From Vulcanimicrobiota bacterium (GTDB lineage Bacteria > Vulcanimicrobiota > Vulcanimicrobiia > Vulcanimicrobiales > Vulcanimicrobiaceae): a stretch of 34,420 bases of DNA. A model generated the notes under the pieces. It made no database searches, had not been told where the DNA came from, and was given only the letters and a program-made list of their open reading frames with translations. Below are positions 18,742 through 34,420 of this stretch, in pieces; the first letter of the stretch is position 1; the number at the start of each line of letters is the position of its first letter. The position numbers and the translations under genes are program-made. The stretch lies in NCBI GenBank assembly GCA_003140855.1, contig PLLF01000032.1:1-34420 (forward strand), written 5' to 3'.

Positions 18742-19478
18742 CTGAACGCGCTCGCGGCGAGCTGCGCGTTTGTGAAACGCCCGAAGACGTAGCCGCGGCA
18801 CTTGCCGATCTGTTCATGGCCGACGCGCGTTCCGCCATCGAGGCCCGCGGTTCGTTCTTCGTTGCTTTGGCCGGCGGCAGGACGCCGCAAGCCGCCTATT
18901 CACTGTTAGTCGGGACCGAGCGGCGCGATGCGATCGACTGGGCGCACGTTTTTATCTATTTTGGCGACGAGCGCTGCGTGCCGCCCGAGAGCGACGAGTC
19001 GAATTACAAAATGGCGTTCGAATCGTTTCTTTCAAAAGTTCCGGTTCCGCCACGTAACGTGCACCGCATGCACGGCGAAGACGAGCACGCGCGAGCTGCG
19101 CGCGCATACGCGCAGCTGCTCGTGGAAACGATGGGCGAGCTGCCGCGCTTCGATCTCGTGCTGTTAGGGATGGGTAAGGATGGCCACACCGCCTCGCTGT
19201 TTCCCGGAACCGATCCTCGTACGGACGAGGACCAACTCGTCCGCGCGGTTTTCGTAAAACAGCATGAAACTCACCGGCTGACACTCACGCCGCTCGTCAT
19301 CAATAATTCGCTGCACGTTGCGATTGCGGTCGAGGGCGCAGCCAAGGCGCCGGCTCTTCACGCCGCCCGCGAAGGGCCTTACGATCCGGTCAAATACCCA
19401 GTGCAGATCGTTTTGCCGCATGACGGCGAGTTAACATGGCTTGTGGACAAAGCTGCCACAGCAGCCTTACCGGGTTAG
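18738..19478 (+). CDS. pgl: 6-phosphogluconolactonase
   Basis: Hydrolyses 6-phosphogluconolactone to 6-phosphogluconate, between Zwf and Gnd. The 246-residue protein belongs to the NagB-like (DevB) type, with ALAGGRTPQ around 46-51, FGDERCVPPESDESN (75-89) and the signature LLGMGKDGHTASLFPG (142-157). GTG at 18738 overlaps the opcA stop by four bases. It is the last gene of the pentose-phosphate operon and its end overlaps the convergent tolC gene by 12 bases, so no separate terminator can fit between them. Confidence 0.96.
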   Translation: MTERARGELRVCETPEDVAAALADLFMADARSAIEARGSFFVALAGGRTPQAAYSLLVGTERRDAIDWAHVFIYFGDERCVPPESDESNYKMAFESFLSKVPVPPRNVHRMHGEDEHARAARAYAQLLVETMGELPRFDLVLLGMGKDGHTASLFPGTDPRTDEDQLVRAVFVKQHETHRLTLTPLVINNSLHVAIAVEGAAKAPALHAAREGPYDPVKYPVQIVLPHDGELTWLVDKAATAALPG

Positions 19479-21179
19479 AATCGTACCGGTCGCGCGTTGA
19501 ATCTCGACCACTGCTTTATTGAGATCGGTCTGCGCCTGCAGCTCTAGACCGCGGTTGTTCGCAACCGCAATTTCGCGCTGCAGCACGAGATACGTCGTCG
19601 ATTCTCCGGCACGGAAACGCCGCTGCTCGCTCGCGAGCACGGCTTCGGCGGCTTGACGGGCCGCGCGCGCCGCATTCAAACGCGCGAGCGCGCTCTGATA
19701 GGCTTGCAAAGCGTTCCGTACCTCGACGGTGATGCCCTGAATCGTTGATGCCTCTTGTACCTGTGCGATATTTTCTTGCTCTTGCGCGATCGCAAGATTG
19801 GCCTTAGCCGTATGATCGCCGATTGGAAACGAAAAGAGCAGGCCCGCGGAATACACCGGGAATTTGTTGTTGAGCAGGTTGCGGATCGATTGGGGCAGAC
19901 CGCCGGAAAGGTATGCCGGAACCGGTGTATTCGAACTCGGCAGCGGCTGGATCTGCTGCGAGGGTGGCAGCGTCGGATTCACGGCTGCGATCAGCGCGTT
20001 GATAGCCATCAGCTGCTGTGCGCTGCTCGCAAAGAACGGGCTGCTCGCGGGGTTTGTCGGCGTGCCCGCAAATCCGTTGCTCGTGTAACCGGCCTGCAGA
20101 TCGACCTGCGGCTTGGTTTGGTTTTGCGCGTATTTAAGATTGACGTCGGCCGCCGCGCGTTGCTGACGCAACTGCTCGACCTCCGGGCGGTTGCGCAGCG
20201 CGGTCACAACGAGGTCCGCTAACGGAGGCTCCGCCGGCAACTGCAACACCGGACCCGTCGGCACCAGATTCGCGTCCCACAGCGGATCGGTGGGACTATC
20301 GGTGAGCAGCGACTTCAACTGGTTTTGCAATAAACCCACGCGCTGCAGCGCCGCGTACACGTTTTCCTGAAAGACCGCGATTTGCGTGTTCGCCTGCACT
20401 ACGTCGATCGGCGCGGAGACGCCCTGGCGCGCGAGCCGAATATTGCTGTGCTGTTGCGTGACCGTATCGCGCAGCGCTTCTTCTTGAATCGCCGCGTTTC
20501 GCCACGCCGAAACCAAATCCCAATAGACGTTTTCGACCTGTGCTACAGTGTCGGCCGTCGTGCTCAGCGCGTGCGCGGCGGCGGCCCGATCGTTGATTCG
20601 CGCCAGCAGCAGGTTGCGCGACGCATCGTTTATACCGCTGTTTTTGGCCAGCGGCTGTGAAAAATTCACCGAAAATACCGTTGGATAATACGGATCGAAC
20701 GAATTGATGGTGGTATTGTCGTGCGTTTGACGGCCACTCGCATTGACGCTGTACTGTTGGCCGGCCGGTGTTATACCTTGCACTCCGGCGCTGACCGACG
20801 TATTGCGCTGAACGATCGGCCCGAAATTCGGGCCGGCGAAGAACGCATTTTGCGGAGCTTCGGTAATGTATTGATACTGCGGCTGCACCGAAAAACGCAT
20901 GTCGAAAGCGCCTTGTGCCGCCACGATCTGATAACCCGCGATGCGGCGGTTGACCTCGACGACTTCTAAATCCGGATTCTTCGAAAGCGCCATGCCGACC
21001 GCATTCGGCAGCGAAATGCCGACGAAAGCTTGTTGCGTAACGCCGATCACGTTGGGCGATGCAGCCGGAACCGGCGGCGCGGCATAGCCGGGCGCAACGA
21101 CCGGAATTTTCGGCAGCACCGGTACCGGAGCGGGCGTCGGCACGGCGGCCGCCGCGGCTAAGAGTAGAACCGCGAGCAC
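19467..21179 (-). CDS. TolC-family outer membrane efflux protein
   Basis: A 570-residue predicted outer membrane channel for tripartite export. It has a short signal peptide followed by a proline/valine-rich stretch (to about residue 45), then two OEP repeats: the first starts with SLPNAVGMALSKNPDLEVVEVNRR, the second with LADLVVTALRNRPEVEQLRQQRAAADVNLKYAQNQ, each rich in coiled-coil heptads. The end ATGTILTR is typical of the family. Near residues 385-430 there is a P/S/T/N-rich insertion between the repeats. The GTG start directly follows the stop of the adaptor gene, so the two are probably co-translated. Confidence 0.9.
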   Translation of the reverse strand: MLAVLLLAAAAAVPTPAPVPVLPKIPVVAPGYAAPPVPAASPNVIGVTQQAFVGISLPNAVGMALSKNPDLEVVEVNRRIAGYQIVAAQGAFDMRFSVQPQYQYITEAPQNAFFAGPNFGPIVQRNTSVSAGVQGITPAGQQYSVNASGRQTHDNTTINSFDPYYPTVFSVNFSQPLAKNSGINDASRNLLLARINDRAAAAHALSTTADTVAQVENVYWDLVSAWRNAAIQEEALRDTVTQQHSNIRLARQGVSAPIDVVQANTQIAVFQENVYAALQRVGLLQNQLKSLLTDSPTDPLWDANLVPTGPVLQLPAEPPLADLVVTALRNRPEVEQLRQQRAAADVNLKYAQNQTKPQVDLQAGYTSNGFAGTPTNPASSPFFASSAQQLMAINALIAAVNPTLPPSQQIQPLPSSNTPVPAYLSGGLPQSIRNLLNNKFPVYSAGLLFSFPIGDHTAKANLAIAQEQENIAQVQEASTIQGITVEVRNALQAYQSALARLNAARAARQAAEAVLASEQRRFRAGESTTYLVLQREIAVANNRGLELQAQTDLNKAVVEIQRATGTILTR

Positions 21180-22424
21180 TCAGGGTACCCGGACGGCGGT
21201 TTCGACGGACATGCCCGGCCGCATCGGATATTTTTTCGGATCCGCATCATCTATCGATATCTTGACCGGAATACGCTGCGTGACTTTTACGAAATTGCCG
21301 GTTGAGTTTTGCGTAGGAACCAGCGCGTACGTGTTTTGCGAAGCCGGATTGATCGCGATGACGCGCCCGTGGAACGTCACGCCCTTATACGCATCGACAT
21401 GAATGTCGACCAGTTGTCCCGGCCGCATGTTTCCGACTTGCGTTTCCTTGTAGTTTGCCGTCACGAAGACTTGATTCGGGATGAGCGTGAGCAGCGGCAT
21501 GCCGGCGCCGACCGTTTGCCCCACTGCGACCTGCTTCTCGCCGACATACCCATCGATCGGCGAAACGATTCGCGTATTCGCGAGGTTTTGCTGCGCTAAC
21601 GAAACGGTAGCCTCGGCCGCAGAAATGGCTGCCGGGCCTTGCGCCTGAGAGAGTTTTCCTTGCGCCGTTTGTACGCCGCCCTGCGCGGCGCTGACGCCGG
21701 CCTGCGCCGAGCCAATCCGTTGCTGCGAGGCGTTCAGGTTGGCAATCGCAACGTTCACGTTGTCTTGCGCCGCGGCGTACTGCGACTGCGACTGCGCGTA
21801 GGCCGCGCGCGCCGCGTCGAGCTGCTGCCGCGGCAAATCTCCGCTGCCTACCAGCGATTGCGCGCGCTGATAGTCGGCACGGGCCCGCGCGAGCGCCTGT
21901 GCCGCGCCCGGGAGCGCCGCCTGCGCGGCCCGTACTTGGGCTTGCGCCGCAGCGACGCCGGCTTGCGCCATCGGAACTTGTGCGGAAGCGCCTTGAACCT
22001 CGGCCTGCGCCTGATTGACCGCGCCGGATCCTTGCTGCACGCCGGCATGCTGATTTTGCAGGGCCAGTTGCAGATTGGCACGCGCCTGATCGAGCGCCGC
22101 GCGTTCGGCTGCGCTGTCGAGCACGATCAGCAATTGACCCTTGCGGACCGGCTGATCGGTGTCGACCAGAATCCTATCGACGCGTTCGTTGATCTTGCTC
22201 GTCACCAGCACCGTGTTCGCATCAACGCGCGCGTCGTCGGTAGATTGGTGGACGTGCGCGTAGCTGTACCAGTTGATGCCATAGAGCAAGAGGAAAATCG
22301 CTATGACAACGCCGGCGGCGATGAAAATCGGCCGCAGATTGCGCCGGGGGCCCGTCTCTTCCGCTTCGGTTGGAGCGGGAACGTCCCCGCGCGTTACCGG
22401 AGGCTGCTGCTCGCGCGTTTCCAT
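21180..22424 (-). CDS. EmrA/HlyD-family periplasmic adaptor
   Basis: Membrane fusion protein of 414 residues linking an inner-membrane transporter to TolC. One N-terminal transmembrane helix (about 32-52) is followed by STDDARVDANTV (61-72), the EmrA-like start of the lipoyl half-domain, then a long alanine/glutamine-rich coiled coil (about 105-265), the second lipoyl half (RIVSPIDGYVG) and beta-barrel (ANYKETQVGNMRPGQLVDIHVD). TetR, adaptor and TolC genes abut without spacing, but the inner-membrane pump normally found with EmrA is not in this operon; the only MFS gene in the window, at 32939, is 10 kb away and of another subfamily. Confidence 0.92.
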   Translation of the reverse strand: METREQQPPVTRGDVPAPTEAEETGPRRNLRPIFIAAGVVIAIFLLLYGINWYSYAHVHQSTDDARVDANTVLVTSKINERVDRILVDTDQPVRKGQLLIVLDSAAERAALDQARANLQLALQNQHAGVQQGSGAVNQAQAEVQGASAQVPMAQAGVAAAQAQVRAAQAALPGAAQALARARADYQRAQSLVGSGDLPRQQLDAARAAYAQSQSQYAAAQDNVNVAIANLNASQQRIGSAQAGVSAAQGGVQTAQGKLSQAQGPAAISAAEATVSLAQQNLANTRIVSPIDGYVGEKQVAVGQTVGAGMPLLTLIPNQVFVTANYKETQVGNMRPGQLVDIHVDAYKGVTFHGRVIAINPASQNTYALVPTQNSTGNFVKVTQRIPVKISIDDADPKKYPMRPGMSVETAVRVP

Positions 22425-23768: not shown

Positions 23769-24563
23769 GTGGGCCCGGTGCTGACCGAACAGCTGCTGCT
23801 GAAGGCCGCCGGGGACGAGGGATTGACTCAGGCCTCGTTCGTTATCACCCGGCTGGACCGGCCGGGGGTGCGCATCGCCGTTCAGCCGGACCACTATTTT
23901 TATCCCGCCAGTATGATAAAGACGCCGCTGGCCCTGGCCGCACTCGAGCTCGTGCAAGAGCACGTCCTCAATCTCGACGAGACCTACGCGGTGACTCAGG
24001 CGAACATGACTGCCAACGACAAGGATTCGCCGCTCGTGCCGGGTTACGTCGCGGCGCTGCATCAGCTGATCGAATTGATGCTCACGATCTCCGACAACGT
24101 GGCGACGAACGTGCTCTTCGATGCGCTCGGCCGCGAACGCGCGACGCAGATCGTGCAGCAGCAGTTCGGGCTCACGAACACCGCCTTCCACAGAAAGTTG
24201 TCGGGTAGCGAGCCGCTGATCGTCGATCCGGGCTGGGACAAAGTTCATCGCAATTCGCACACGGCCGGCGACGCGGCCAAACTCTTCGAGCTGATCGCGC
24301 GCGACGAAGTGCCCTTCGCGCGCTTGTTTCGCAGCATCTTAGAGCGACAGCAGTGGAACAACAAACTGCCCGCAGGCCTCTATCCGGGTGACCGTTTTGC
24401 GCACAAGACCGGCGACACTGATGAAGTGACGCACGACGGCGGCATTCTAGATACGCAGGAAGGCGCTTCTTACGTGCTTGTGGTCTACACGGGCATGGTG
24501 TCCAACGACACCAACAATGCGAAGTTCGCCCCATTCATGAGCTCAATTCGTCCCTACCTATAG
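23769..24563 (+). CDS. Class A beta-lactamase-like serine hydrolase without visible signal peptide
   Basis: The 264-residue protein carries the three penicillin-recognising motifs in order: SMIK (S48, K51), SDN (108-110) and KTG (213-215), the spacing of class A beta-lactamases. An EP pair at 148-149 may be the omega-loop glutamate, but the following residues do not match the usual ExxxN, so hydrolytic activity on beta-lactams is uncertain. The chosen start is GTG at 23769. An in-frame stop at 23733-23735 closes the frame just upstream with no ATG, so no signal peptide can be encoded unless there is a sequence error; most relatives are exported. It is divergent from the TetR efflux operon and may share its operator. 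Confidence 0.82.
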   Translation: MGPVLTEQLLLKAAGDEGLTQASFVITRLDRPGVRIAVQPDHYFYPASMIKTPLALAALELVQEHVLNLDETYAVTQANMTANDKDSPLVPGYVAALHQLIELMLTISDNVATNVLFDALGRERATQIVQQQFGLTNTAFHRKLSGSEPLIVDPGWDKVHRNSHTAGDAAKLFELIARDEVPFARLFRSILERQQWNNKLPAGLYPGDRFAHKTGDTDEVTHDGGILDTQEGASYVLVVYTGMVSNDTNNAKFAPFMSSIRPYL

Positions 24564-24570
24564 CGAAGCG

Positions 24571-25752
24571 CTAAGAGCTGCGGCGCTCGCAGCGGCCGGC
24601 GCGAAAGACCGCGGCGGCGAGATTGCCCCCAAACTGCCAGCCGAATTCATCCGGCGAGCCGATCTGCAACGCTACGAAATCCGCGGGATCACCTGCGCGA
24701 ATGCGCCCGGCGTGCAGGCGCAACGATTTTGAGGCTGCGACCGTCACGCCGTACAGCGCCTCCGCCGCGCTCAGGCCAAAGAATTTGCGCCCGAAATATG
24801 CGACCGTCTGTAGGTTGAAACACGGTGAGGTTCCCGGATTATAATCGCTTGCCAGCGCGACGCTTCCACCACGCTCGAGGATCTTACGCACGGGCACGCG
24901 TTCGGGAAGCTCGAGGTATGCGATCGTCGCCGGGCAGGATACGGTGACGATATCGTGCTCGGTGATTGCCGCCACATCTTGCTCGCGAATATAGTTGCAA
25001 TGATCGACGGCATCCACGCCGATCTGTGCCGCCATCGCCGCGGCGCCGCTGTAAGCCATCTCGTCGCAATGCACGCGCAGTCTCAGGCCGTGCGCGCGCG
25101 CCGCCTCGAGGTAGCGCCGGGTCTGCGCCGGAGAGAAAAATCCGGGCTCGCAAAACGCATCGGCATACACGGCGCCGTGAGACTTGGCCTCCGGTAGCAC
25201 CTCAGCGATCAGATAGTCGATGTACTTTTCTGCGTCAGCGAATTCGGGCGGGACGGCGTGCGCGCCTAAGAAGGTTGATACAAGCCGGGGCAGCGCTGAG
25301 TCGTCTTTGTGTGCATCGATCAGATCGAGCAGTTGCAGCTCGCCGGTTTTCGTCAGCGCATAGCCCGTCTTTACTTCAGCCGTCGTCGTGCCATGCGCGA
25401 GCATCAGCTTCAAGCGGGTTGCGACAGTCTTCCAAAATGCCGGCGGGTCTGAGAGCGCTTCGCGCGTTTTCTGCACGGTATGCAACATCGTTTGGCCGGG
25501 TTCGCGGGTGCCCGCAAAAAGCGGATGCGTGTGCGCGTCCACAAAGCCGGGGACGATGACGCAATCCCGCAGATCGAGTGGTTCGACTGGGGCGCTTTGT
25601 GGCGCCCGCTCACCATGACACGAAGAGATGACCCCGTCTTCAACAAGAATTGCGCCGTTTTTTATCAGCCCGAGTTTTTCAAACGTGATGCCGTTCTGCG
25701 GAGCGACCGTGTCACAGGTTACGATCGCTCCGGCGCGGACTAGAAGCGCCAA
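24571..25752 (-). CDS. hutI: Imidazolonepropionase (HutI)
   Basis: Hydrolyses 4-imidazolone-5-propionate to N-formimino-L-glutamate, step three of histidine breakdown. With TTG at 25752 it has 393 residues. The metal-binding HTH of the amidohydrolase fold is at 74-76 in [30 protein letters not shown] and [10 protein letters not shown] follow as in the family. The start overlaps hutU by 13 bases; the frame stays open upstream in hutU but that part is unrelated. Residues about 45-58 (CHGERAPQ...VEP), in a loop before the metal site, are encoded by a palindromic repeat that also occurs at the window end. Loop length is nevertheless close to that recalled for the B. subtilis enzyme. Confidence 0.93.
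25578..25620. repeat. 43-bp palindromic repeat, copy 1, inside hutI
   Basis: Left flank GTGGTTCGACTGG and right flank CGCTCACCATGACA are identical to the copy at 34378-34420. The 16-base centre differs and is self-complementary: GGCGC and GCGCC around TTTGTG. The element is read through without a stop by hutI on the minus strand. Confidence 0.85.
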
Positions 25753-27392
25753 TCGATGCCTTTGGAGTCTGCGGTTTCGATCGCCGTTTCGTATCCCGCG
25801 TCGGCGTGCCGAACGACGCCCAGTCCCGGATCCGTTGTGAGTACGCATGCCAACCGCTCGCGCGAATCGTCGCTTCCGTCGGCTACGACCACCATGCCGG
25901 CGTGCAGGCTGTAACCGATACCGACCCCGCCGCCGTGATGAAACGACACCCAGTGCGCGCCGGCGGCCGTATTCAGCAATGCGTTGAGGATCGGCCAATC
26001 CGCGATCGCGTCGCTGCCGTCTCGCATCGCTTCGGTTTCGCGGTACGGGGAGGCGACGCTCCCGGCGTCGAGATGATCGCGGCCGATAACGATCGGAGCG
26101 CGCAATTCGCCCGAACGCACGAGTTCGTTGAAACGCAAGCCCGCTTTCGCGCGATCGCCGTACGCCAGCCAGCAAATGCGCGCCGGCAAACCTTGAAAGG
26201 CGACGCGCTCGCGCGCCAGCGTGAGCCAACGTCGAAGTGAAATATCATCGGAGAAAAGCTGAAGCAGCTCTTCGTCGCAGCGCGCTATGTCGGCCGGATC
26301 GCCGGAAAGCGCCGCAAAACGAAACGGGCCGCTTCCTCTGCAGAAAAGCGGGCGGATGAACGCCGGCACGAAACCCGGAAAGTCAAAAGCGTTCTCTACT
26401 CCGGCGCGCTGCGCCATCGCGCGCACGTTATTGCCGTAATCAAAAACGACCGCTCCGTTTTCCTGGAACCGCAACATTGCTTTGACGTGCTCCGCAACGG
26501 TCGCAAAAGCGCGCCGTTCGTATTCCTGTGGATCGCGCGTACGTAAATCGGCGGCTTCTTCTACCGAAAGGCCCTCGGGAATGTACGATCCGATCATGTC
26601 GTGCGCGGGCGTTTGGTCCGTCACGACGTCGGGCCGCAAGCCGGCGGCGAACAGCGCCGCAAATTCCGTTCCGGCATTTCCTTGGTAGCCGACCGACAAT
26701 GCGCGCCCTTCGCGGCGCGCCGCGTCCACTTCGCGCATCGCTTCGTCACGCGATCCCGCCACGCGATCGAGATACTTCAGCTCGCGCCGCCGTTCGAGCC
26801 GGCGCGGGTCGACGTCGACGATGAGCGCGATACCTTCATTCATCGTAATCGCCAGCGGCTGGGCGCCTCCCATTCCACCGGCGCCGGCCGTCAAGGACAG
26901 ACGTCCGCGCAGCGTGCCGCCGAAGTGTTGACGCGCGAGCTCGGCAAACGTCTCGTACGTACCTTGAACGATCCCTTGCGAACCGATGTAGATCCAAGAT
27001 CCGGCCGTCATCTGACCGTACATCGTCAAGCCTTGCGCTTCGAGCTCGCGGAACGTTTTGAGGTCTGCCCATTTCGGTACGATGTTCGCGTTGGCGATCA
27101 ACACGCGCGGCGCGCGGGCGTGCGTCTTAAAGATCGCAACCGGCTTTCCGCTCTGCACGAGGAGCGTCTCGTCGTTCTCCAAGCGTTTGAGCGCGCGTAC
27201 GATTGCGTCGAACGCTTCCCACGACCGCGCTGCCCGGCCGTTGCCGCCGTAGACGATCAGCTCGTCGGGCCGCTCGGCCACCTCGGGATCGAGATTGTTC
27301 ATCAGCATGCGCAGCGCGGCTTCTTGCGGCCAGCCGGCGCAGCTTATTTCGCTGCCGCGCGGCGCGCGAATGGTCCGGGCGGGGGCTTTCAT
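25740..27392 (-). CDS. hutU: Urocanate hydratase
   Basis: Converts urocanate to 4-imidazolone-5-propionate using tightly bound NAD, step two of histidine degradation. Its 550 residues are the normal length. Recognisable segments are [11 protein letters not shown] (48-58), the glycine-rich NAD-binding [11 protein letters not shown] (170-180), [10 protein letters not shown] (C351) and [25 protein letters not shown] lies near the C-terminus. The ATG overlaps the hutH stop by four bases and its end overlaps hutI, so the three enzymes are translated from one transcript in pathway order. Confidence 0.97.
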
Positions 27393-28924
27393 TTTTGAGA
27401 CGCACTTTCGGCAGCCCGCACGAGCTCGCCATTCGCGATCAACTCCCGCGCCGCCACGATGTCCGGCGCCGGTGAACGATCTTCGCGCCAGGCGGGAATG
27501 CGTTTGCGCGCGATGGCGTACGCCGCTTGGGTTCCGGCGCCCGAACGCAGCGGGCGGCGAAAATCCGTTGCCGCCAAAGCGCCGAGCAATTCGCAGGCGA
27601 GCGAACCTTCTACATTGTCCAGCACGCGGTCGAGATTAAGCGCCGCGGTCATTCCCATACTGACGTGATCCTCCTGACCCGCGGAAGTCGGAATCGAGTC
27701 CACGCTGTTCGGCCAGGCCAACCCCTTGTTTTCGGAAACCAGCGCGGCTGACGTGTATTGCACGATCATCAGGCCGGACTGCAAGCCCGAGCGGCCCGTA
27801 AGAAACAGCGGCAGCCCGCGCTCCTCGCCGTTCAGCAAGAGGTAGAGTCGCCGTTCGCTGATCGAAGCCAGTTCGGCCAGCGCAATTTTCAGCACGTCGC
27901 AGGCCAAGGCAACGGGTTGCCCGTGAAAGTTTCCGCCGCTCAAGAACTCGCCGTCGTCGGGAAAAACCAGCGGATTGTCGGTCACCGAGATCGCCTCGGT
28001 CTCTATTGCGGTGCGCGCGTAAGCGGCAGCGTCGCGAACCGCTCCGTGTACGACCGGAATGCAGCGGTACGAGTACGGATCCTGAACGCGGCCGCATTCG
28101 CGGTGCGACTCGATGATTTCAGAGTCGCGCAGCAGCGCGCGCAAGCGATCTGCCACCGCGGCCTGTCCGGGATGAGGCCGCAACGCATTGATGCGCCTGT
28201 CGAACACACGATCGGTCCCCAAGAACGCCTCGAGCGACATGGCGCCGATGACATCGGCGGACGCCATCAACGTTTCCGCGCGCAGCATCGAAAGCGCCGC
28301 GACGCCGGTCATCGCTTCGGTGCCGTTGACCAGCGAGAGCCCTTCTTTGGGCGCGAGTTTGATCGGCGCGAGGCCCGCGAGTTCCAAAGCTCGCGCGCTT
28401 TTCATCTTCTCGCCGCCGAAATAGGCGTCGCCTTCACCGACGAGCGTCAGCGTCATGTGTGCCAGCGGCGCCAAATCGCCGCTCGCACCGACCGAGCCTT
28501 GCGAAGGCACAAACGGCGTGATTCCGCGGTTGAGTATTGCCGCCAAGAGATCGAGCGTCTCTTCGCGGATGCCCGAATGTCCCGCCGCCAGCGAACTGAC
28601 CCGCAACACGCCAGCGGCGCGCACGAAAGCTTCCGATAGCGGCGGGCCCGTGCCGGCGGCGTGACTGCGCACGAGATTCAGTTGAAGTTGCTCGGCATCT
28701 TCGCGCGCAATCGGGACGTTGGCCAGCCGTCCGAAGCCGGTGGTTACACCGTAGATCGCTTCGCCTTGCGCAAGTTTTTCTTCGACTAGGCGCCGGGCGG
28801 ACGCAACGCGCCGGCGTGCGTCCGTGGTGATGCGGATCTCCGCGCCGTTCACGGCGACCGCGCGAATCGATTCAAGAGTTAGCTGCCTGCCGTCAATGTC
28901 GACGGCGGCCGGTACGGTCGGCAC
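27389..28924 (-). CDS. hutH: Histidine ammonia-lyase
   Basis: Removes ammonia from histidine to give urocanate, the first step of the hut pathway. The 511-residue protein contains the A-S-G triad at 147-149 in [13 protein letters not shown] that cyclises to the MIO cofactor, preceded by [11 protein letters not shown] (58-68) and followed by [22 protein letters not shown] and [12 protein letters not shown]-like segments (here [13 protein letters not shown]) are near the C-terminal end. GTG at 28924 has AAGGA six bases upstream. It begins nine bases after the stop of a secreted protein gene, suggesting one operon. No HutC-type regulator is seen. Confidence 0.97.
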
Positions 28925-34347: not shown

Positions 34348-34377
34348 GATTTATGCGGCCCTCGACTGCGCTCGCGC

Positions 34378-34420
34378 GTGGTTCGACTGGCGCATCAAAG
34401 ATGCGTCGCTCACCATGACA
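34378..34420. repeat. 43-bp palindromic repeat, copy 2, at window end
   Basis: Same flanks and same length as 25578-25620, with a different 16-base centre in which CGCATC and GATGCG pair around AAA. Just before it, 34361-34377 contains TCGACTG and CGCTC directly joined, possibly a decayed or hairpin-less relative. The element may continue past the window edge. Confidence 0.8.

Follow-up and report, generated by a model that had tools for sequence, protein, structure and literature searches.

Palindromes that are read in frame inside conserved genes are known from the Rickettsia palindromic elements. The window analysed here, a stretch of 34,420 nucleotides that makes up the whole of contig C91 of a Vulcanimicrobiota genome (2.28 Mb in 116 contigs, 94% complete; hereafter the host), contains a palindrome of this kind in hutI, the gene for imidazolonepropionase, and a second copy with a different centre at the contig end. 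Here we ask what kind of repeat this is, how its copies could have spread and how one of them came to be translated as part of an enzyme.

Two copies in the window

A pattern search with GTGGTTCGACTGG-N16-CGCTCACCATGACA returned exact matches at only two places in the window, 25578-25620 and 34378-34420, and the pattern was absent from all 100 dinucleotide shuffles of the window. The 16-base centres of the two copies, GGCGCTTTGTGGCGCC and CGCATCAAAGATGCGT, are both self-complementary and dissimilar to each other. An earlier note on this DNA had described two 43-bp copies with exact flanks of 13 and 14 bases around unlike self-complementary centres, and this description holds. Its delimitation of the unit does not: the 43 bp are half of a composite element that reads on the minus strand, and the variable tip comprises 20 nt, more than the 16-base centre, since TTCGAC...GCTCA forms the conserved core. 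The hutI copy is a first unit alone, whereas the second copy is a two-hairpin element that abuts the contig end. The features are as follows.

24571..25746, minus strand: hutI (imidazolonepropionase), which contains the first copy; it scores 279.8 bits against TIGR01224, slightly below the cut-off of 298.15
25578..25620, minus strand: first-type hairpin unit in hutI, TGTCAT-GG-TGAGC-(20-nt hairpin tip)-GTCGAA-CC-AC; encodes 14 residues, 51-64 of the translated stretch P0001
25615..25620, minus strand: TGTCAT tag at the 5′ end of the hutI unit; the unit pattern search itself was tag-free
25588..25607, minus strand: variable 20-nt tip of the hutI unit, a self-complementary hairpin
34354..34420 (inner end approximate), minus strand: second copy, a head-to-tail dimer ending in CGCA on its contig-inward side
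34378-34420, minus strand: first unit of the second copy, tip GACGCATCTTTGATGCGCCA
about 34358-34377, minus strand: second unit of the second copy, CGAGC-GCA-GTCGAG, outer pairs imperfect

The 5′ limit of hutI is provisional, as the longest open frame starts upstream at 26229. The genes hutU and hutH lie upstream of hutI (25740-28924, minus strand), with frames that overlap by a few bases. The open reading frame (ORF) adjoining hutI (23769-24563, plus strand) resembles class A beta-lactamases at 72.7 bits, below the family cut-off of 200, and an efflux-like cluster with EmrA-type adaptor and TolC-type outer membrane genes occupies 19467-22424 on the minus strand. Contig ends coincide with, or come within about 10 bases of, two elements, that at 34378-34420 of the window and another in the host (G000:C3:30106-30137, on a 30147-base contig); such positions are expected of repeats that break an assembly.

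Architecture and fold of the repeat unit

The repeat unit is a hairpin, TGTCAT-SS-TGAGC-tip-GTCGAA-SS, which is often followed by a second, head-to-tail unit, CGAGC-tip-GTCGAG. In many copies (39 tagged sites) the full element reads TGTCAT-(GG or CC)-TGAGC-tip-GTCGAA-(CC or GG)-AC-(GGC, CCC or GCC)-CGAGC-tip-GTCGAG-...-CGCA. The tips consist of either 2-3 nt or a variable, self-pairing hairpin of about 17-30 nt. With a search pattern that does not require the tag, TGTCAT or CGTCAT was found ahead of most TGAGC units. Second units share the orientation of the first, and 23 of them lie beside the 34 tagged units of the host stretches.

These units are far more frequent than in control sequences. 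The pattern GGTTCGACN{2,30}GCTCACC matches the host genome 29 times and its reversed control not at all. Units with complementary outer pairs number 72 in a host set of 410,715 bases, consisting of contigs picked for holding elements plus the window, whereas ten block shuffles gave 1-5 each and the reversed sequence 2; the corresponding numbers for 400,000 bases of the congener G002 are 32, 0-4 and 3. When pairing was not required, the outer pairs were complementary in 113 of 120 tagged units (host, 33 of 34; G002, 29 of 33; G006, 26 of 27; G104, a genome of another genus of the family, 25 of 26). Look-alikes without the tag from this same DNA reach only 75 of 595. Second units fall below the tagged ones, at 43 of 65 (15 of 23, 15 of 20, 13 of 16 and, in G104, 0 of 6).

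For the 16 distinct short units with a tag, pairing holds in 93.8% of cells, as opposed to 73.8% in shuffles, and their covariation score of 0.458 (0.160 in shuffles) was reached by none of 500 shuffles, a score that relatedness among the units may inflate. Two pairs are changed on both sides, which is no excess, as 476 of the 500 shuffles reach that number. The closing pair is T-A in 117 of the 120 tagged units and mostly C-G in second units; it encloses an invariant GAGC...GTCGA, a core that is part of the search pattern. In this core GA stands opposite GA, an arrangement that could give a tandem sheared step, and a G-C pair lies between this step and the tip. The long tips have stems of their own: 43 of 49 distinct long tips contain a stem of at least 6 bp (9.7% of shuffles do), and their longest stem averages 7.1 bp, compared with 4.0 bp in shuffles.

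Distribution of the family

Of 149 genomes of the phylum, 76 contain the tagged pattern, mostly in the host family (73 of 99 genomes, against 3 of 50 others); none of the 149 has a match in its reversed sequence. The host carries 55 tagged copies, the seven genomes of its genus carry 55 to 117, and G104 carries 464 in 2.5 Mb. In three stretches of G104, all tips are 2-nt and the outer pairs are CC/GG or GC/GC. Another genome of a different genus of the family, G033, has 26 matches of GGTTCGAC...GCTCACC; in many of them the centre is short (8-12 nt) and self-complementary, for example CGCTACGCG, which is a different tip style. Plasmids of Phyllobacterium, Nitratireductor, Moraxella and others give short matches, which span 19-30 of the 49 bases of the query at a best E-value of 0.006, so that the repeat core is probably not confined to the Vulcanimicrobiota.

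The earlier note had taken the two copies as members of a dispersed palindrome family in which the structure of the tip is kept but its sequence is not, and had proposed a genome-wide copy count with a covariation analysis. The 55 host copies, far more than two, together with the unit counts, the genome survey, the tip stems and a covariation score above all 500 shuffles, support this interpretation. In the open-licence papers searched, the repeat core is not printed as a literal string and no title joins this phylum with palindromic repeats, which is weak evidence of absence; the Vulcanimicrobium alpinum paper mentions neither palindromes nor repeats, and the part of RepRanger that was available does not name the phylum under the term searched.

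A variable element in the hutI loop

Translation and alignment confirmed that the hutI element is read in frame, as the earlier note had stated, and that it encodes 14 residues (51-64) ahead of the HTH motif. In the AlphaFold model of HutI (mean pLDDT, 91.6), residues 53-61 link strands 47-52 and 62-74, and the block of residues 51-60 has a pLDDT of 67; the element residues are thus predicted to form a low-confidence loop between two strands.

Element sequence is present at this position in all six genus genomes with a full hutI, and each is different; G003, with a weak hit only, falls outside this count. The loops are composed as follows.

Host: one first unit
G001: two tandem copies
G002: a first unit interrupted by a short unit, plus a third
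G004: three hairpins, a host-type first unit and then two more
G005: a copy apparently nested in a copy
G006: hairpins without the tag

Outside the genus, the scan for tagged elements found none in the hutI loop of 20 of 21 alignment rows. The remaining row, L105, has a tagged element that is read in another frame as the peptide VILSAAPKGREVEG. Two further sequences stand outside the alignment: L116 has an element-like peptide in the loop, beside masked bases, and L089 has a longer loop from which the motif is absent. The comparison with relatives that the earlier note had suggested thus found differing elements in congeners and loops mostly free of the repeat at greater distance.

The host loop is similar in length to that of Bacillus subtilis HutI (2bb0) and not longer than those of most element-free relatives. 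For this reason the element probably replaced native loop residues, as the earlier note had suspected. HutI proteins of the genus also lack about 11 residues directly after the HTH motif that are present in every other alignment row.

Elements in prfC and other genes

A second protein segment has been occupied in a similar manner. In release factor 3 (RF3), encoded by prfC, the linker that leads from the GTPase domain to the one after it contains element sequence in all seven genus genomes: strict elements in the host (G000), G003, G004 and G005, degenerate ones in G001 and G002, and only a tag-like remnant in G006. The 13 prfC proteins of other genera in which the linker was inspected contain no element, and a scan of other-genus prfC loci found zero tagged elements. 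The prfC products of G000 and G003 are 97% identical over aligned residues 1-337, and their elements have the second unit and the right flank in common, but the first unit has GG/CC outer pairs and a 2-nt tip in G000 and CC/GG pairs and a 29-nt tip in G003. Among the sites compared, none shows apparent unit exchange at one position more clearly than this pair. In the orthologous linker of biotin carboxylase, the host and G002 share the same dimer, the second unit of which is altered on both arms, including a change from T-A to C-G.

Of the 71 tagged elements in the host and G002 stretches, 18 lie in an ORF that extends for at least 40 amino acids to either side. Protein families back eight of these candidates, which represent seven distinct genes and are all in sense orientation. 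In the host they are HutI, a biotin carboxylase-carrier fusion, isoleucyl-tRNA synthetase (IleRS) and RF3; in G002 they are the biotin carboxylase-carrier fusion, UvrC, DnaE2 (an error-prone DNA polymerase) and a transporter of short-chain fatty acids. We rejected L143, an antisense chance match within a conserved HTH motif; L190 is an antisense in-gene candidate. The remaining eight, among them L153 in the antisense frame of G002 hutI, are candidates by ORF extent.

Genomic placement and orthologous sites

We located 103 tagged elements from stretches of four genomes relative to ORFs, which served as gene proxies and cover 84-89% of the DNA. By these proxies, 16 elements lie inside ORFs in sense and 6 in antisense orientation, 29 lie between convergent and 7 between divergent ORFs, and 9 are at stretch ends; between same-direction ORFs, the tag is in sense orientation 26 times and in antisense 10 times.

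Pairing of orthologous sites between the host and G002 covered 18 of 56 clusters, 8 of which were compared base by base; in six pairs the gaps are equal, and these are probably chance occurrences of the unit pattern within coding sequence. Between G003 and the host, just 4 of 26 G003 element clusters could be paired. These include prfC, one common element with changes in the tip loop and at the 3′ end, and one ambiguous case. A full dimer downstream of ileS in G003 is absent from the host. In a comparison of L014/L156 with L276 of G003, G003 has about 36 extra nt, including an element-like CATGGTGAG, directly upstream of an otherwise common element.

Searches for a mover and nested copies

A search for Y1_Tnp, the Pfam domain of RAYT-type transposases, was negative in all 7 genomes of the genus and in all 29 searched from the host family and its neighbour; the same search was positive in 5 of 14 control genomes. 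The domain is present in 9 of 12 class-mates, and these nine carry 0-3 tagged copies each. It is also absent from 28 further genomes of the family, which were selected for their richness in elements. We therefore rejected a RAYT/Y1 transposase as the mover on its absence from the genus and the searched family genomes; a reverse transcriptase (RVT_1, PF00078), found in 1 of 18 genomes and in 0 of 7 of the genus, was rejected as the copier. A transposase of another family may act in trans.

Two host copies lie inside resident units, both between GT and CGA, such that the outer unit is restored without a visible target duplication. The nested pattern GT[AATGTCAT...]CGA gives 18 rows (16 places after merging overlaps) in 6 of 149 genomes and 0 in the reversed control. 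A looser pattern is found in 34 of 149 genomes, where 5′ halves with a new copy behind them break off at several points, and in genus g47 the CGAA after the copy can be the element's own tail. Nested insertion was rejected as a general rule on account of these varying break points and the g47 tail, and only the two host cases were kept; an automatic search for restored units among 167 elements yielded noise beyond these two (random-partner control, mean 5.3, maximum 9). A separate host element, L157 (minus-strand offset 15749, G000:C61), has a direct duplication with a period of 28 that extends from the 5′ flank to inside the tip hairpin; slippage at a hairpin could produce such a junction.

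Origin of the elements

We infer the mobility of the family and its mechanism from these patterns. Most elements are intergenic, a minority are in frame in conserved enzymes, and one loop contains different elements across species. The explanation that we favour, and consider probable, is that the hutI element belongs, as a single unit, to a dispersed family of REP-like palindromes whose units are exchanged without a Y1/RAYT transposase of their own and are tolerated in frame. Copies would spread and exchange units by single-strand hairpin processing during replication or repair, chiefly through template switching and through gene conversion of one copy by another. Hairpin-templated copying would preserve the self-complementarity of the tip, while the tip sequence drifts or is swapped. 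Inside genes, selection would retain only stop-free, in-frame versions in flexible loops or linkers, where they would act as near-neutral spacers. In favour of this explanation are the copy numbers above controls, the complementary and covarying outer pairs, the stems of the long tips, the differing elements in the hutI loop and the prfC and biotin carboxylase linkers, the two nested host copies, the lack of Y1_Tnp and RVT_1 in the genus, and the predicted loop position of the HutI residues. Against it are the poorer pairing of second units, the lack of an excess of pairs changed on both sides, the unspecific nesting pattern and the small share (4 of 26) of G003 clusters with a host counterpart. 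More tentatively, and with appreciably less confidence, we propose a transposase-free system in which hairpin-templated repair or replication rewrites and swaps tips and entire units but preserves the fold, nests copies at GT^CGA and feeds in-frame peptides to tolerant enzyme loops, such as those of HutI and RF3, that are rewritten between species.

We consider a history with little or no continued dispersal rather doubtful. In that case one ancient insertion each in the hutI loop and the prfC linker, before the genus split, would have been followed by conversion, duplication and deletion on site, with little or no new insertion. The same position in every congener fits this history, as do the first-unit type shared by the hutI elements of the host and G004 and the second unit shared by the prfC elements of G000 and G003. 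Nevertheless, the hutI loop of L105, a sequence from outside the genus, is occupied by a tagged element read in another frame, while 20 of 21 outside-genus rows are without such an element, and the dimer downstream of ileS is present in G003 and not in the host. It is unlikely that the elements are RNA-level signals, acting as 3′-end hairpins on transcript ends or stability, which spread and were kept for this function, with the in-gene copies accidental. Two strong serial hairpins would fold in RNA, and by the ORF proxies the placement agrees, with 29 of 103 elements between convergent and 7 between divergent ORFs and the tag sense in 26 same-direction cases, against 10; yet the window has zero Rfam family matches at gathering score, and a like orientation bias, reported for REPs generally in the available text of PMC3733652, may mirror where insertion is tolerated.

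An ordinary REP/REPIN system, with a RAYT (Y1) transposase as its mover that has since been lost or acts from elsewhere, would account for a tag beside a hairpin, for dimers and for possible nested copies without target duplication, which are similar to IS200/IS605-type products, and 9 of 12 class-mates do have a Y1_Tnp gene. We regard this as very improbable, since those nine carry 0-3 tagged copies, the domain is missing from all 7, 29 and 28 genomes searched in the genus, the two families and the element-rich set, and the tag is TGTC, not GTAG. Chance, that is, codons of the HutI loop that merely look palindromic, is suggested by a loop as long as that of an ordinary HutI, but is refuted by counts far above the shuffles and reversed controls, and the same DNA recurs between genes and, in other frames, in other enzymes; we give it practically no weight.

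Comparison with known systems

The available text of Di Nocera, De Gregorio and Rocco (2013, PMC3733652) leaves open how CGTC-type REPs spread without a dedicated transposase. The present lineage is a natural test of that spread, as it offers related genomes with up to 464 tagged copies and no Y1 transposase in those searched, unit tips that run free, and protein loops with different copies in each species. It also advises caution, in that peptides of predicted proteins such as CHGE..PVEP, VILS..SK and LSEVEG can be translated repeats.

The coding palindromes of Nematomorpha mitochondria (PMC6649704) are likewise inverted repeats within protein-coding genes but, as described in the accessible part of that paper, do not form a bacterial family of dispersed repeats with a tag. 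GTAG REPs, REPINs and RAYTs, as far as the consulted sections of PMC3116915, PMC2817692 and PMC8266576 describe them, are tagged short hairpins that occur in high copy number and in composites, as here; they differ in their GTAG tag and inverted pairs, whereas the present family has a TGTC tag, head-to-tail units and no Y1 found in the genus.

The most similar repeats on record are the CGTC-tagged REPs, a superfamily with TGTC variants that occurs in five phyla without a dedicated transposase (PMC3733652, available text, as for all statements on CGTC repeats below). Their stem has 8 or 9 bp and starts with complementary AT residues, the loop has 4 or 5 nt, with other lengths in few species, the unpaired tail is mostly CCA, and dimers are mostly head-to-head, head-to-tail ones being negligible. 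Intragenic copies are known in dnaE2 and excinuclease (uvr) genes. Of the elements of Rickettsia conorii, RPE-6 is assigned to the CGTC-1 and RPE-4 to the CGTC-4 repeats, so that the resemblance to Rickettsia palindromic elements seen in the earlier note is strengthened by the TGTC form of the tag: by description, the only level at which they were compared, RPE-4 and RPE-6 are also in frame in conserved protein genes and belong to the same tag class, but the tip and dimer layout of the present family is not described for them in that text. With the CGTC REPs in general, the family shares the TGTC tag form, short palindromes in many copies that are mostly intergenic with some in genes (dnaE2 and uvr genes included), a broad phylum range, and no dedicated transposase found (Y1_Tnp being absent from the genus and 28 other family genomes). 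It differs in that the AT after the tag faces AC and the outer stem is interrupted by GA/GA, in tips of 2-3 nt or a long hairpin with its own stem instead of a 4- or 5-nt loop, in head-to-tail dimers, and in a host phylum outside their five; its unit tails are CCAC in GG-type and GGAC or GGGC in CC-type units, next to their CCA. Because stem, tip and dimer layout differ, we regard the repeat as a new variant near the CGTC/TGTC-tagged REPs rather than a member of them.
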